64,000 nt of DNA from Chloroflexota bacterium (GTDB taxonomy: Bacteria > Chloroflexota > Limnocylindria > Limnocylindrales > CSP1-4), in NCBI GenBank assembly GCA_026004015.1, contig BPIH01000001.1, forward strand, positions 80,398 to 144,397, written 5' to 3'. This document shows, piece after piece, positions 11,396-64,000 of this stretch (within the stretch, counting starts at the first letter, position 1; every line of letters begins with the position of its first letter). A program made the translations under genes and the position numbers. The notes below the pieces were generated by a model, which had not been told where the DNA came from, did no database searches, and saw only the letters and a program-made list of their open reading frames with translations.

Positions 11396-12220
11396 TCAGG
11401 GGCTGAACCAGCCGCCTCCGCCGCCTCCGCCGCCCCCTCCAAGGCCGCCGCTGCCTCCGCCGCCCCCTCCAAGGCCGCCGCTGCCGGTCGGCGAGATCCA
11501 CCACTCGACATCGTCCGGGGTAAAGGAACTTCCGTCGCTGAGCCAGCAAATGAGCCCGACCTCGTCGGAGTCGGGAGCCGTGACGACCACGACCCCGACG
11601 AACGAAACCCGGGGGGTCCCTCCTGGTGAGAGGTCGAAGGATTGCGAGAATCCGGAGACGTTGGGGTCTCCGCCCGGCAGTCCCGTTCCGACGACCGAGC
11701 AAACCCCCGGGGATGGGGGAACGAGCGCCTTCGCGACGACGAGGTACGTGCCGGAGGTCAGCGCCGGCCCCGGGTTGCCGGTCTTATGAACGAAGGTCAG
11801 CCCCGCGCCGGCGGGTCCCGTCGGCCCCTGCGGGCCGGGGGGCCCTGTCGGCCCAGGCGCCCCCTGCGGCCCTCGAGGCCCCTGTGGTCCGGGCGGCCCC
11901 TGGGGCCCCGTCGGCCCGGGCGGTCCCGTCGGCCCAGGCGCCCCCTGCGGCCCTCGAGGCCCCTGTGGTCCGGGCGGCCCCGTCGGCCCGGGCGGCCCCG
12001 TCGGCCCGGGCGGTCCCGCCGGCCCGGGAGGCCCTGTCGGTCCCGGTGGTCCGGAGACCGTCGGTCCCGGCGGCCCCGTCGGTCCCGGGGGTCCCACCGG
12101 TCCCTCGAGGATGCCGGTACTTGTGATGGCGATCACGAACACGAGGCTCACCGCAGTCGCCACGACGGTCGACGCGATCGTCATACTCAATTGCGGTGGC
12201 TGGGGCAGATTCATCGACAT
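11396..12220 (-). CDS. collagen-like (Gly-X-Y) membrane-anchored protein with C-terminal domain and Gly-rich tail
   Basis: [36 protein letters not shown] segment, [10 protein letters not shown]... repeats, C-term [23 protein letters not shown]...[25 protein letters not shown], tail [35 protein letters not shown] upstream. Confidence 0.85.
11810..12110 (-). repeat. in-gene tandem DNA repeats encoding the Gly-X-Y tract
   Basis: Near-identical blocks such as cgtcggcccaggcgccccctgcggccctcgaggcccctgtggtccgggcggccc occur twice. Confidence 0.85.
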
Positions 12221-33932: not shown

Positions 33933-33956
33933 GCACACCGAAGCCGGACGTGTGCG

Positions 33957-34271
33957 CGCGACGCCTCCACCGAACGGAACGCCCGCGCCGGCCGACCTCC
34001 GGGCCTGGGTGACGCCCACAGCGAGCAGAACGCGGCCCGCGGCGCGGACCCCGCCACTCGTGACACCCACAGCGAACGGAACGCCCGCGCCGGCCGACCT
34101 CCGGGCCGGGGTGACACCCATAGCGAACAGAACCCATCGATGGCCCGTTGACGGCGCCGACGTGACGCCCACCCCGAACAGAAGGTGTGGAGCCAGCTCG
34201 GATGCGATCTTCCTGTTCGCTCAGGGTGGCACTCCGGGCGACGACCGTCACCGGACCGGCGTTCTGTTCGG
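33957..34271. repeat. 51-bp-period array: five forward and two inverted copies of GTGACRCCCAYAGCGAACRGAAC
   Basis: CGAACRG cores start at 33971, 34022, 34073, 34124, 34175 (each exactly +51); inverted CTGTTCG cores at 34213 and 34264 (+51). Arms are symmetric about position 34197. Confidence 0.9.
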
Positions 34272-34418
34272 TCAAGGTAGCGGGCAGACCGACGCGGCGG
34301 TGGAACAGAGGTCTCGGCCGGTCCGGGCGCTGCGGGTGTAGACTGCCGCTCCGGTTCCAGCCAGGGTGTCCCGTGGCGGCAGGCCGCACCCGACACCCGA
34401 CCCACATCCGAGGTTCCA

Positions 34419-58139: not shown

Positions 58140-60899
58140 ATGATCAGCCCGACGATGACGATCCTGCCCCGGCGCGCCGAGGACCGCGCCTCCGACGTCT
58201 ACCGCCTCGGCCGCCATCCCCTCGACCCGATCTTCCGACCCCGCTCGGTCGCCGTCGTCGGGGCGACCGAGAAGGAGGGGAGCGTCGGCCGGACCGTCCT
58301 CTGGAACCTCATCTCGAGCCCCTTCGGCGGCACCGTCTTCCCCGTCAACCCGAAGCGCTCGAGCGTCCTCGGCGTCAAGGCCTATCCGAACCTCGCCGCC
58401 GTCCCCGACCCCATCGACCTCGCCGTCATCGTCACCCCGGCCGAGACGGCACCGGGACTCATGGAGGAGTGTGCCGCCGCCGGCGTCCGGGGCGTGATCA
58501 TCATCTCGGCCGGCTTCAAGGAGAGTCGGCCCGGCCGGGGCGGCCCTCGAAGCCCAGGTCCTCGAGATCGCCCGCCGGGCCCGGATCCGGGTCGTCGGCC
58601 CGAACTGCCTCGGGGTCATGAACCCGATCTCGGGCTTGAACGCGACCTTCGCCGCCGGGATGGCGAAGGCGGGCTCGGTCGGCTTCGTCAGCCAGTCGGG
58701 CGCCCTCCTGACCGCCGTCCTCGACTGGAGCGCCCGCGAGGGCGTCGGCTTCAGCTCCGTCGTCTCCCTCGGCTCGATGCTCGACGTCGGCTGGGGCGAC
58801 GTCATCTACTACCTCGGCGACGACCCGCACACCGAGAGCATCGTCATCTACATGGAGACCATCGGCGACGCCCGCTCCTTCCTGTCGGCCGCCCGGGAGG
58901 TCGCCCTCACGAAGCCGATCATCGTCATCAAGCCCGGCCGGACGGCCGAGGCCGCCCGCGCCGCCGCCTCCCACACCGGCTCCCTCACCGGCTCGGACGA
59001 GGTCCTCGCCGCCGCCTTCCGCCGGGTCGGTGTCCTGCGCGTCGACCGGATCAGCGATCTCTTCGGGATGGCCGAGGTCCTCGCCAAGCAACCCCGCCCG
59101 GCCGGTCCGCGCCTGACGATCGTGACGAACGCCGGCGGACCCGGGGTCATCGCCACCGACGCCCTCGTCGCCGGCGGCGGTCGGCTCGCCGAGCTCGCCC
59201 CGGAGACGATGGCCGCCCTCGACGCCGTCCTCCCGCCGACCTGGAGCCACAACAACCCGATCGACATCATCGGCGACGCGCCGCCCGAGCGGTACGCGAA
59301 GGCCCTCGAGATCGCCGCCCGCGATCCCGGGCTCCGACGGCCTCCTCGTCATCCTCACGCCCCAGGCGATGACCGACCCGACCCGGACGGCCGAGGCGCT
59401 GACGGCCTACGCCCGGATCGACGGCAAGCCCGTCCTCGCCTCCTGGATGGGCGGCGCCGAGGTGGAGGCCGGGGCGACCATCCTCCGGCGGGCCGGGATC
59501 CCGACCTTCGACTACCCGGACACGGCGGTCGAGATGTTCAACTACCTCTGGCGCTCGGCCCAGGATCTCCGAGCCCTCTACGAGACGCCGTCCTTGCCGG
59601 CCGACGACGAGCGGGTCGTCGACCGGGCCCGGGCGGCAGCGGTCATCGAGGCGGCCCGGGCGGAGGGGCGGACGCTCCTGACCGAAGTCGAATCGAAGGC
59701 GGTCCTCTCGGCCTACGGGATCCCGATCACCGAGACGCGGGTCGCCCGGACCGAGGAGGAGGCGGTGGCCGCGGCCGAGGCGATCGGCTACCCGGTCGTC
59801 GTCAAGCTCTACAGCCACACGATCACCCACAAGACCGACGTCGGCGGGCGTCGTCCTCAACCTCCACGACGCCGCCGCCGTCCGGGCTGCCTACCGGCAG
59901 ATCGAGGCGGCGGTGACCGAGCGCCGGGGCCGGGAGCACTTCGAGGGGGTGACGGTCCAGCCGATGATCAACTACACCGGCTACGAGCTCATCCTCGGCT
60001 CGTCCATCGACGACCAGTTCGGGCCGGTCCTCCTCTTCGGGATGGGCGGCCAGCTCGTCGAGCTCTTCCGGGATCGCAGCCTCGGCCTGCCGCCGCTCAA
60101 CACGACCCTCGCCCGGCGGATGATCGAGCGGACGACGATCTCCAAGGCCTTCGCCGGGATCCGGGGCCGGCGGCCGATCGATCAGGCGGCCCTCGAGGAG
60201 CTCCTCGTCCGCTTCAGCCTCCTCGTCGTCGAGCAGCGCTGGATCCGGGAGATCGACATCAACCCGCTCCTCGCCTCACCCGAGCGGCTGATCGCTCTCG
60301 ACGCCCGGATCGTCCTTCACGATCCGGGTGTGACCGAGGCGGAGCTGCCGCGCCTGGCGATCCGACCGTATCCGCGACAGTACGTCGGGACGTGGACGGC
60401 CGCCGACGGGACCGAGCTCGTCCTCCGCCCGATCCGGCCCGAGGACGAGCCGGCCATGGTCCGCTTCCACCAGGCCCTCTCGGAGGAGACGGTCTACGCC
60501 CGCTACTTCGCCCACCTCGGGCTGACGGAGCGGATCGCCCACGACCGGCTCGTCCGGATCTGCTTCAACGATTACGACCGCGAGATCGCCCTCGTCGCCG
60601 AACGCCGCGACCCGGCGACGGGTGAGTCGGAGATCGTGGCCGTCGGGCGGCTGTCCAAGGCGCATGCGGTGCCCGCCGCCGAGTTCGCGATCCTCGTCGC
60701 CGACCGCTGGCAGCGGCGGGGGATCGGGACCGAGTTGTTGCGGCGGCTGGTCGAGATCGCCCGGGCCGAGGGGCTGGAACGGATCTGTGCCGAGATGCTC
60801 AGCGACAACGTCGGGATGCGGCGGATCGCCGAGCGGGTCGGCTTCCGGATCGAGGAGCGGCCGGGCGACGGGACACTCCGCGCGGAGCTCCTTCTCTGA
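58140..60899 (+). CDS. ADP-forming acyl-CoA synthetase-like protein fused to C-terminal GNAT acetyltransferase, frameshifts near 58535, 59335, 59845
   Basis: [77 protein letters not shown]-term [31 protein letters not shown]...[22 protein letters not shown]. Confidence 0.92.
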
Positions 60900-60980
60900 T
60901 CGAGGTGTCCCAGACCTCGCCGACGCCCCGAGCCCTGGTACGCCGGGCGGATCGGGGGTCCCTCCGCTACGTCGCGCCGT

Positions 60981-61353
60981 GTCGCCCTGGCCGAACAACA
61001 CGCTCTTGCCTGAGCCCCCGGAGCCGTCCGCGTCGCCCAGAGCGAACACCTCGCGGTTCGCACTCGCCCGTGCGCTTGCCGTGTCGCTGTCAGCGAACAT
61101 CACGTGGCTCCGCGCACCCTGGCCGCCGCCCACGTCGCCCACAGCGAACACTACGCGGGTCCTTCACCGGGCGAGGCGCGTACTGTTCGGCCATAGCGAC
61201 GCGCGGGGCGGCCACCGGGCCGTCGGGCCCGTACTGTTCGGCCATAGCGACGCGCCGTGCAACCGGGAGCGCCGGATCCCCGAGATGTTCGGTCTGAGCG
61301 ACGCGGCGAGCGGTCGGCGAGCCCGGATAGCGGTTCCGGTCGGCCCGAGCGAC
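60981..61353. repeat. 51-bp-period mirror array: four forward and four inverted copies of GTCGC-N6-CGAACA
   Basis: Forward copies start at 60981, 61032, 61083, 61134; inverted copies (TGTTCG-N6-GCGAC) at 61184, 61235, 61286, 61337 (last degenerate). All four pairs are symmetric about 61167. Confidence 0.93.
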
Positions 61354-61494
61354 GTTCGTGCCACCCTCCCGCCCATCGACCGCGTTCGTTCGCCCGCCGA
61401 TGGCTCGGGGCGACGGTGCCGCCGATCGGGCGTCCTGGTCGCCAGGCCGGCGCCTCGGCCAACTTCCCCTGGTCGGGACGACGGGCGCGCCGGC

Positions 61495-64000
61495 CTACCC
61501 CCGGACGACGACGTTGACGAGCCGCCCGTTGGCGGCGTGGATGATCCGCTCCGGTTGGCGGCCGCCGAGCAGCGCCGCGATCTTCGGGCGGGCGAGGACG
61601 AGCGCCTCGAGCTCCTCTCGGGAGATCCCGACCGGCACCTCGATCCGGTCCCGGAGCTTGCCGTTCACCTGGATCGGCACCTCCCGCGTCTCCTCCGCCG
61701 CGGCCGCCTCGTCGACGGCCGGCCAGCGCTCGGTGTGGATCGAGCGCCAGGCTTCGCCGCGCTCGGCGAGCCGCCGGCTCCAGAGCTCCTCGGTGATGTG
61801 CGGCGCCGATGGTGCAAGCATGAGGAGGAGGAGGTCGATCGCCTCGTTCCAGGCGGGACCTCCGGCGACGACCGTTCCCCGGTACCGGAAGAGCGTGTTC
61901 GTCAGCTCCATGAGCTTGGCGACCATCGTGTTGAAGCGGAACGCCTCGTAATCCGCCGTCACCTCGCGAAGCGTCCGGTGGGCGGCCCGGCGGAGCGTCG
62001 CCGACGCCTTCGCCTCGTCCTCGCCCCCCGGCAGTCGGCCGGCCTCCGGATCGCCGGGCTCCGTCCCGCCCGGATCGAGGACGAGGGTCCAGACCCGGCG
62101 GAGGAACCGATGGACGCCCTCGATCCCGGTCGGGCTCCAGGGGCCGCCCTGGTCCCACGGCCCCATGAACATGAGGAAGAGCCGGACCGTGTCGGCGCCG
62201 TAGCGGGCCACGTAGTCGTCGGGGTCCTCGACGTTGCCGCGGCTCTTGCTCATCCGCTCGCCGTCGGCGCCGAGGATCTGGCCCTGGTTGAAGAGCCGCT
62301 TGAAGGGCTCCCGCTCGCCGACGAGCCCCAGATCGGCGAGGGCCTTCGTGAAGAAGCGGGCGTAGAGGAGGTGCATGACGGCGTGCTCGGCGCCGCCCGT
62401 GTACTGGTCGACGGGGCACCAGCGGTCGACGAGGGCCCGATCGAGGGGACCGTCGCCCTTCTTCGGCGACAGGTAGCGGTACCAGTACCAGGACGAATCG
62501 ATGAAGGTGTCCATCGTGTCCGTCTCGCGGCGAGCCGGGCCACCGCAGCGCGGGCAGTCGACGTTCAGGAAGGCCGGGTCCCGCTTCAGCGGGTTGTCGC
62601 CGCGGCCCCGGTAGTCGACCTGCTCGGGGAGGAGGACCGGGAGATCCTCGTCGGGGACCGGCACGATGCCGTCGCGCTCGCAGTAGATGATCGGGATCGG
62701 CGTTCCCCAGTAGCGCTGGCGGCTGATGAGCCAGTCCCGGAGCCGGTACGTCACGGCCGGCCGGGCCCGGCCCGTCTCGCCGAGCCAGGCGACGATCGCC
62801 CGACCCCCGTCGTCGGCCGGCTGGCCGCTGAAGGGCCCCGAGTTCACGAGCCGCTCATCGCCGCCGTGGGCGACGAAGGCCTCGGTCAGTGGCGCATCCT
62901 CGGTCCCGGGCGCGGCCACGACCCGCCGGATCGGCAGCCCGTACCGAACGGCGAAGGCGAAGTCGCGCTCGTCGTGGGCCGGGACGCCCATGATCGCCCC
63001 GGTCCCGTAGCCCAGGAGGACGTAGTCGGCGATGAAGATCGGGATCCGCTCGCCGGTGGCCGGGTTGACGGCGTCGGCCCCGATCGGAACGCCGGTCTTC
63101 TCCCGCTCCGTCGATAGCCGCTCGATCTCCGTCTCGGCCCGGGCTCGGGCGACGTAGGCCTCGACCTCGGTCCGCCGATCAGGGGCAGTGATCTCGGCGA
63201 CGAGGGGATGCTCCGGGGCGAGGACCATGAAGGTCGCCCCGAAGAGGGTGTCCGGGCGGGTCGTGAAGACGCGAATTGGGGCGCCGCCCGGGTGGTGGTC
63301 GCTGGGCGCCGTCTCGAAGACGATCTCGGCCCCCTCGGAGCGGCCGATCCAGTTCGCCTGCATGACTCGGATCGGCTCCGGCCAGTCGATGCCCGAGAAG
63401 TCGAGGAGCTCGTCGGCGTACTTCGTGATCCGCAGGAACCACTGCTCGAGGTCGCGCTTCTCGACCCGAGCGCCGCAGCGCCAGCAGCGTCGCTCGGCCC
63501 CCTCGACCTGCTCTCGGGCGAGGGTCCCGTCGTTCGGGCACCAGTCGACGGCGGCCATGGCCCGGTAAGCGAGACCGGCTTCGTAGAAGCGGAGGAAGAA
63601 CCACTGGTTCCAGCGGTAGTACTCGGGATCGCAGGTTACGACCTCGTGCTCCCAGTCGAAGGTCGCCCCCATGCTCCGGAGCTGGCGCCGCATGTTCTCG
63701 ATGTTCCGCATCGTCCAGGTTGCCGGATGGATCCCGGAGCGGATGGCGGCGTTCTCGGCCGGCAGTCCGAAGGCGTCGAAGCCGATCGGGAAGAAGACGT
63801 TGTAGCCGTGCATCCGCCGGAAGCGGGCGAGGGCGTCGGTCGGGGTCTTGATGTACCAGTGCCCGATGTGAAGGTCGCCTGACGGGTACGGGTACATCGT
63901 CAGGAGGTAGTACTTCGGCCGGCTCGTGTCGGCGAGGTCGGTCCGGTAGAGGCCGAGCTCGGCCCAGCGAGCCTGCCAGCGCGGCTCGATCTCGGCCGGG
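61495..64000 (-). CDS. leuS: leucyl-tRNA synthetase, partial (N-terminus beyond window)
   Basis: MYPYPSGDLHIGHWYIKTPTDALARFRRMHGYNVFFPIGFDAFGLPAENAAI...LFMMFMG-type catalytic region...MSKSRGNVEDPDDYV; frame continues open past 63897 to the edge. Confidence 0.97.
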   Translation of the reverse strand, partial: PAEIEPRWQARWAELGLYRTDLADTSRPKYYLLTMYPYPSGDLHIGHWYIKTPTDALARFRRMHGYNVFFPIGFDAFGLPAENAAIRSGIHPATWTMRNIENMRRQLRSMGATFDWEHEVVTCDPEYYRWNQWFFLRFYEAGLAYRAMAAVDWCPNDGTLAREQVEGAERRCWRCGARVEKRDLEQWFLRITKYADELLDFSGIDWPEPIRVMQANWIGRSEGAEIVFETAPSDHHPGGAPIRVFTTRPDTLFGATFMVLAPEHPLVAEITAPDRRTEVEAYVARARAETEIERLSTEREKTGVPIGADAVNPATGERIPIFIADYVLLGYGTGAIMGVPAHDERDFAFAVRYGLPIRRVVAAPGTEDAPLTEAFVAHGGDERLVNSGPFSGQPADDGGRAIVAWLGETGRARPAVTYRLRDWLISRQRYWGTPIPIIYCERDGIVPVPDEDLPVLLPEQVDYRGRGDNPLKRDPAFLNVDCPRCGGPARRETDTMDTFIDSSWYWYRYLSPKKGDGPLDRALVDRWCPVDQYTGGAEHAVMHLLYARFFTKALADLGLVGEREPFKRLFNQGQILGADGERMSKSRGNVEDPDDYVARYGADTVRLFLMFMGPWDQGGPWSPTGIEGVHRFLRRVWTLVLDPGGTEPGDPEAGRLPGGEDEAKASATLRRAAHRTLREVTADYEAFRFNTMVAKLMELTNTLFRYRGTVVAGGPAWNEAIDLLLLMLAPSAPHITEELWSRRLAERGEAWRSIHTERWPAVDEAAAAEETREVPIQVNGKLRDRIEVPVGISREELEALVLARPKIAALLGGRQPERIIHAANGRLVNVVVRG

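Follow-up and report, generated by a model that had tools for sequence, protein, structure and literature searches.

Mirrored arrays at a 51-bp pitch in a Chloroflexota genome: candidate lattices for a self-assembling DNA-binding protein

The DNA analysed here, referred to as the window, is a stretch of 64,000 nucleotides from a Chloroflexota bacterium. Towards its end, two convergent genes, one for an acyl-CoA synthetase-type protein and the other leuS, enclose an array of short repeats, array B (Table 1). The name leuS comes from the preliminary description of this DNA and from the sequence of the gene, and syntenic relatives were found via tblastn. Eight copies of GTCGC-N6-CGAACA had been described between these genes, four forward and four inverted. 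The forward copies are exact on the + strand at 60981, 61032, 61083 and 61134, as are three inverted ones on the - strand at 61184, 61235 and 61286; the eighth, at 61337, has 2 mismatches (GTCGCTCGGGCCGACCG), so that the tally is seven exact copies and one degenerate copy. The rest of the described geometry holds: each arm advances in exact 51-bp steps, all four mirror pairs share the centre 61167, and 33 bp separate CGAACA from TGTTCG at the dyad. With at most one mismatch allowed and spacing ignored, the pattern has 10 matches in the window; shuffles average 2.4, and none of 100 reached 10. By eye, the inner spacer of array B has nothing in common with the inner spacers of the other arrays. 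A 15-nt pair at 60920/61402 (centre 61168) was considered as outer terminal inverted repeats of B and rejected, being within the shuffle range and without counterpart in other arrays.

Is this array a singular object? The available assembly (1.37 Mb in 9 contigs, ~55% complete) says otherwise. Exact GTCGC-N6-CGAACA has 25 matches in the whole assembly, against 0 for a reversed-pattern control, and the majority of them fall in further 51-bp arrays. A sequence-only profile from 38 units, run over the whole assembly and with array limits refined later, gives at least 11 arrays of the mirrored 51-bp architecture, spread over five contigs at about one per 125 kb. The preliminary description had named copies at random spacing and orientation elsewhere in the genome as the outcome that would speak against it; the opposite is seen, since the other copies also face outward and follow one another at 51-bp steps. 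Array A (33955-34286), absent from that description, lies in the window as well, upstream of a gene for an ABC transporter. When the window and most of the remainder of its contig (C1) were scanned for chains, only A and B appeared, arrays C and D being in the parts left out, and the scan of 400 kb of relatives and of shuffled controls gave no arrays. At 11822-12104 the window also holds a GC-rich tandem repeat (GGCCCC-type, periods of 9, 18, 36 and 81 bp), possibly a Gly/Pro-rich coding repeat.

Table 1. Arrays A to K and the genes beside array B. Plain coordinates are those of the window; coordinates with a contig prefix refer to the assembly.
Feature	Coordinates	Strand	Remarks
Left neighbour of array B	59913..60899	+	ATP-grasp and GNAT acetyltransferase part of an acyl-CoA synthetase-type protein; Pfam ATP-grasp_5, Acetyltransf_3, Acetyltransf_1
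Array B, left arm	60976..61155	-	Four 27-mer units starting at 60976, 61027, 61078, 61129; outward-reading
Array B, centre	61156..61178		23-bp inner spacer, dyad at 61167
Array B, right arm	61179..61358	+	Four 27-mer units starting at 61179, 61230, 61281, 61332; last degenerate; outward-reading
Right neighbour of array B, convergent	61495..63999	-	leuS, leucyl-tRNA synthetase; ORF call, extends past window end
Array A (second in window), left arm	33955..34185	-	Five units at 33955, 34006, 34057, 34108, 34159; variant ending YGTCRC
Array A, right arm	34209..34286	+	Two units at 34209, 34260; dyad step 50 bp
Array C	C1:286647-288425		Profile search
Array D	C1:392282-392548		Profile search
Array E	C3:18760-18991		Profile search
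Array F	C3:47668-47951		Profile search
Array G	C3:138721-138951		Profile search
Array H	C3:176275-176505		Profile search
Array I	C5:86966-87195		Profile search
Array J	C6:61822-62152		Profile search
Array K	C7:64940-65372		Profile search

With regard to the repeated word itself, the 17 bp first ascribed to it fall short: the conserved word is about 24 bp long, CGWNNTGTTCG-N7-YGWCRC, and carries ~21.5 bits over about 24 columns (within columns 1-25, weighted by array), whereas the columns outside it mostly hold 0.0-0.2 bit and a few up to 0.4. The middle of the motif, previously written as N6, is degenerate rather than free, and the core forms a degenerate pseudo-palindrome, TTCG-SYSNSRS-YGWC.

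The geometry is kept closely. Forty of the 47 within-arm steps are exactly 51 bp, the other seven are 52 or 53 bp, and none falls at a half-turn offset. At the dyad, nine of 11 arrays have a step of 50 bp, K has 49 bp and D 86 bp. Polarity is the same in 11/11 arrays: left arm on the - strand, right arm on the + strand, with a single flip and the units facing outward. Two arrays show irregularities. One unit of array I contains an extra base within the motif, and aligning it by its second half gives steps of 51 bp on both sides. The right arm of array C is interrupted by a Mutator/IS256-type transposase gene (Transposase_mut; L040:3895-5300) flanked by an 8-bp duplication, CGGCCGCG, and with the insertion left out the step across measures 51 bp. 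When each site is referred to the centre of its pseudo-palindrome (position 14.5-15 of the 27-mer), the 50-bp dyad step becomes equal to a pitch of 51-52 bp, and the flip does not disturb the regularity of the lattice. With a central reference point, then, the coordinates suggest that all sites of an array form one evenly spaced row of ~51 bp whose polarity flips at the midpoint.

What lies between the units is of a different nature. Spacer identity between arrays is 0.34-0.38, as compared with 0.33 in shuffles: the spacers are unconstrained, in keeping with the preliminary observation that motif and spacing are conserved and the sequence between them is not. Arrays B, C, I and J have GCGACGCG in common, and their spacers reach 0.383 against a null of 0.332. 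Among the units, identity is 0.74-0.78 within an arm, 0.66 between opposite arms and 0.59 between different arrays; adjacent units are near-identical in C and K, and adjacent spacers in C, J and K. Since units within an arm are the most alike and near-identical neighbours occur in C, J and K, local tandem duplication is what lengthens the arms. Consecutive spacers fall below an identity of 0.42 in six pairs; in four of these six both steps are 51 bp, and in the other two one step is 52 bp. Steps kept despite spacer identity near the shuffled level indicate that motif and pitch persist when the spacers have lost their sequence. Mirror partners resemble each other no more than other pairs drawn from opposite arms (0.66 in both cases; permutation p 0.11), and they show no covariation.

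The surroundings of the arrays are less telling. By our own ORF calls, all are intergenic, the flanking genes being convergent at four of 11, co-directional at six and divergent at one; a comparison set of 170 intergenic regions taken from the same genome comprises 30 convergent, 98 co-directional and 42 divergent, and the arrays are without clear bias against it. The convergent setting of array B is thus no defining context, being found at only four of the 11. The neighbouring genes are unrelated in function and inconsistent in orientation, so that context gives no hint of the role of the arrays. A gene with a Ku domain (end-joining) adjoins array K (L123:1646-2686).

How widely are these arrays distributed? 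One species of the genus was sampled, and "lineage-specific" is therefore used here to mean species-level at least and genus-level at most. In the genomes sampled from the family, class and phylum of this bacterium, pair patterns gave no array, just isolated hits judged to be chance; family-wide searches with a loose pattern and with the profile likewise gave isolated hits alone, the profile having 1-3 weak hits per genome. A class-wide dyad search pointed to one other genome (G142), where a single sequence with 2 mismatches occurs at two places, and this was taken as chance. Among 85,488 species genomes, the strict direct-pair pattern has eight scattered single matches in unrelated proteobacteria, which are attributed to chance because their profile scores are at most 26, whereas no true array scores below 51. 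Viral contigs, phages and plasmids gave no match to an array, and three relatives, covered over 100-180 kb each, showed no 51-bp family in a de novo repeat-lag scan. A comparison of orthologous acs-leuS gaps had been proposed in the preliminary description; two syntenic relatives are array-free at this junction. In G063 (genus g19) it measures 38 bp, and no clean insertion point or target duplication could be delineated; in G061 it contains an unrelated small ORF.

Interspersed repeats of bacteria typically either form hairpins or consist of simple tandem units. A poor fit to CRISPR arrays, simple REP/BIME elements, iterons and terminators had already been pointed out, and we agree. With CRISPR arrays they share a short repeat, a constant period and non-conserved spacers, but their repeats are degenerate (0.74-0.78 within arms, 0.59 between arrays), the orientation flips at the midpoint and many arrays are dispersed over the genome. 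The mycobacterial MIRU are intergenic tandem units in which the whole unit is repeated head to tail; the length is similar, but the present arrays keep the motif and the pitch alone, and they are mirrored. At Tn7- and Mu-type ends, asymmetric transposase sites of ~20 bp are repeated in one orientation per end and inverted between ends. The arrays have the same layout, with sites in one direction within an arm and inverted between arms, but they lack element boundaries, terminal repeats and cargo, and many dispersed copies exist.

A further parallel is with REP/BIME elements, which are extragenic, dispersed, clustered and regularly spaced, occur in both orientations with unrelated spacers, and bind IHF and gyrase as BIMEs, for which a chromosome-organising role has been suggested (PMC2817692). 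All of this except the binding partners can be said of the arrays, extragenic and dispersed according to our own ORF caller. REPs, however, are imperfect palindromes with complementary changes that alternate in a BIME, are usually present in more than 100 copies and are associated with RAYT transposases (PMC2817692). The array units are asymmetric and hairpin-free, and inspection of them showed no covariation between the paired positions of the pseudo-palindrome; in place of alternation, 11/11 arrays have one outward flip, and the pitch is fixed at 51 bp. Another set of short intergenic repeats with a sporadic taxonomic distribution and a suspected binder is that of the TAACTGA heptamers of Beggiatoaceae and cyanobacteria, which lie mostly just upstream of start codons; these are direct repeats and not mirrored, unlike the arrays (PMC4679880).

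Several explanations can be weighed against this evidence. Could the arrays act as RNA? Transcripts from either side would carry tandem GTSRC...CGAACA for an RNA-binding protein, or the arrays would be bidirectional terminators of the Rho type. The mirror symmetry does show the same orientation to transcription from both sides, 10 of the 11 arrays have the 3' end of one or more genes beside them, and in most cases whole arrays outfold shuffles on both strands. This excess, however, comes solely from arm-to-arm complementarity: single arms fold about like shuffles, and the mean z is -0.08 for the spacers and 0.06 for control intergenic DNA. Mirror partners show no covariation, and on our ORF calls the genes flanking one array diverge. 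There is no intrinsic terminator (GC stem followed by a T run) at 60800-61600, around array B, and an Rfam scan of ten arrays (B to K) gave no match above the gathering score. An RNA hairpin or a tandem structured RNA is rejected in view of the folding of arms and spacers and the absent mirror covariation, and an RNA-level element in general appears unlikely. As for coding, 51 equals 3 x 17, and several arms can be read through in the outward frame, as if divergent small proteins were built of 17-residue repeats, [VM]LF[AG]x[GS][DV][AT]. The steps of 52 or 53 bp (7/47 intervals) disrupt this frame, several arms contain in-frame stops, third codon positions are conserved as much as first and second ones, and the dyad has no space for starts, which makes this the least credible of the explanations. 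In short, shuffle-like folding of the arms, no mirror covariation and frame-breaking steps disfavour both the RNA-hairpin and the coding interpretations; no RNA or coding signal was found.

The main rival, though a doubtful one, is a lineage-specific repeat, selfish or passively amplified (MITE-like or REP-like): a mirrored element spread by a transposase acting in trans, with the motifs as its multiple binding sites and with later local expansion. The narrow distribution favours it, as do the dispersed and intergenic location within one lineage, the two array-free acs-leuS gaps, the sequence variants among arrays together with the slight spacer excess in B, C, I and J, and the resemblance of mirrored, outward sites to a pair of transposon ends. 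Copies of one element should nevertheless look alike, and here spacers and centres differ between most arrays and arm lengths are variable; no terminal inverted repeat or common boundary extends beyond the units, flank-to-flank alignments never scoring above the best shuffled control. No Y1 transposase (RAYT) was found in the available ~55% of the genome, although the control genomes did match; a search for the Mu-type transposase family gave no match, but its controls did not match, so that it carries no weight. A different possibility is that the arrays are partition, replication-termination or other chromosome-handling sites (centromere-like or Ter-like), a specialised version of a protein lattice in which polarity would matter for a moving machine. 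Opposed rows of polar motifs are reminiscent of fork-trap and partition sites in general, but at least 11 sites dispersed over five contigs, about one per 125 kb, make such a role improbable.

The explanation that accounts best for the data, with a probability of roughly 0.5, is that the arrays are lineage-specific DNA lattices for a putative sequence-specific, self-assembling protein. A near-random spacer sequence, while a 24-bp word, its spacing to nearly the single base pair and its direction from the midpoint are kept at no fewer than 11 places, is a strong signature of a geometry-dependent DNA assembly, and the flip at the midpoint of 51-bp arrays at so many places suggests a protein that would assemble in regular order along the DNA. 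Among the earlier suggestions, a phased binding platform for an oligomeric protein is thus the best supported, with protein binding, cooperativity and a chromosome-organising or insulating role being what we infer. The motif would be the binding site. Its two conserved blocks, one around TTCG and the other around YGWC some 11 bp away, have the layout expected of a protein that binds DNA as a dimer or through two domains and touches successive major grooves. Protein copies placed every 51 bp, near five helical turns, could contact one another on one face of the DNA, the two polar rows would join at the dyad into a single symmetric nucleoprotein complex, and the arms would be extended via local tandem duplication. 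The likeliest role would be chromosome organisation, or local silencing or insulation between genes. A bolder version, less likely than not, is that these dyad-symmetric ~51-bp lattices, with their putative protein in two opposed polar rows, would be a new class of chromosomal element that organises or insulates the chromosome. Apart from the mixed gene context, two points weigh against the lattice. At 10.5 bp per turn, 51 bp correspond to 4.86 turns, so that exact facing of the sites would need slight overwinding or flexibility; and a core system for organising the chromosome would not usually be confined to a single species-level genome, though about half of this genome is missing. In practice, the arrays offer a directly usable bait for finding the putative binding partner.

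A few other repeats were encountered in the same family. G046 has a dispersed palindrome, TGTTCGCTCTATCCGAACA (L080:2536-2743 and L124-L129), at 12 places in one species and in 0/11 congeners. Its first half, TGTTCGCT, resembles the array motif, and one pair is 51 bp apart, without regular pitch or mirror; judged from sequence likeness, it is a possible cousin of the motif. The same genome carries a ~37-nt repeat with steps of 70-76 bp and the look of a CRISPR array (L185:8590-9304). In G088, a different intergenic repeat, TGCGTGGGGCCGCACC, recurs with steps close to 19 and 38 bp (L177:6980-7096), which suggests that other species of the family carry intergenic repeats of their own.
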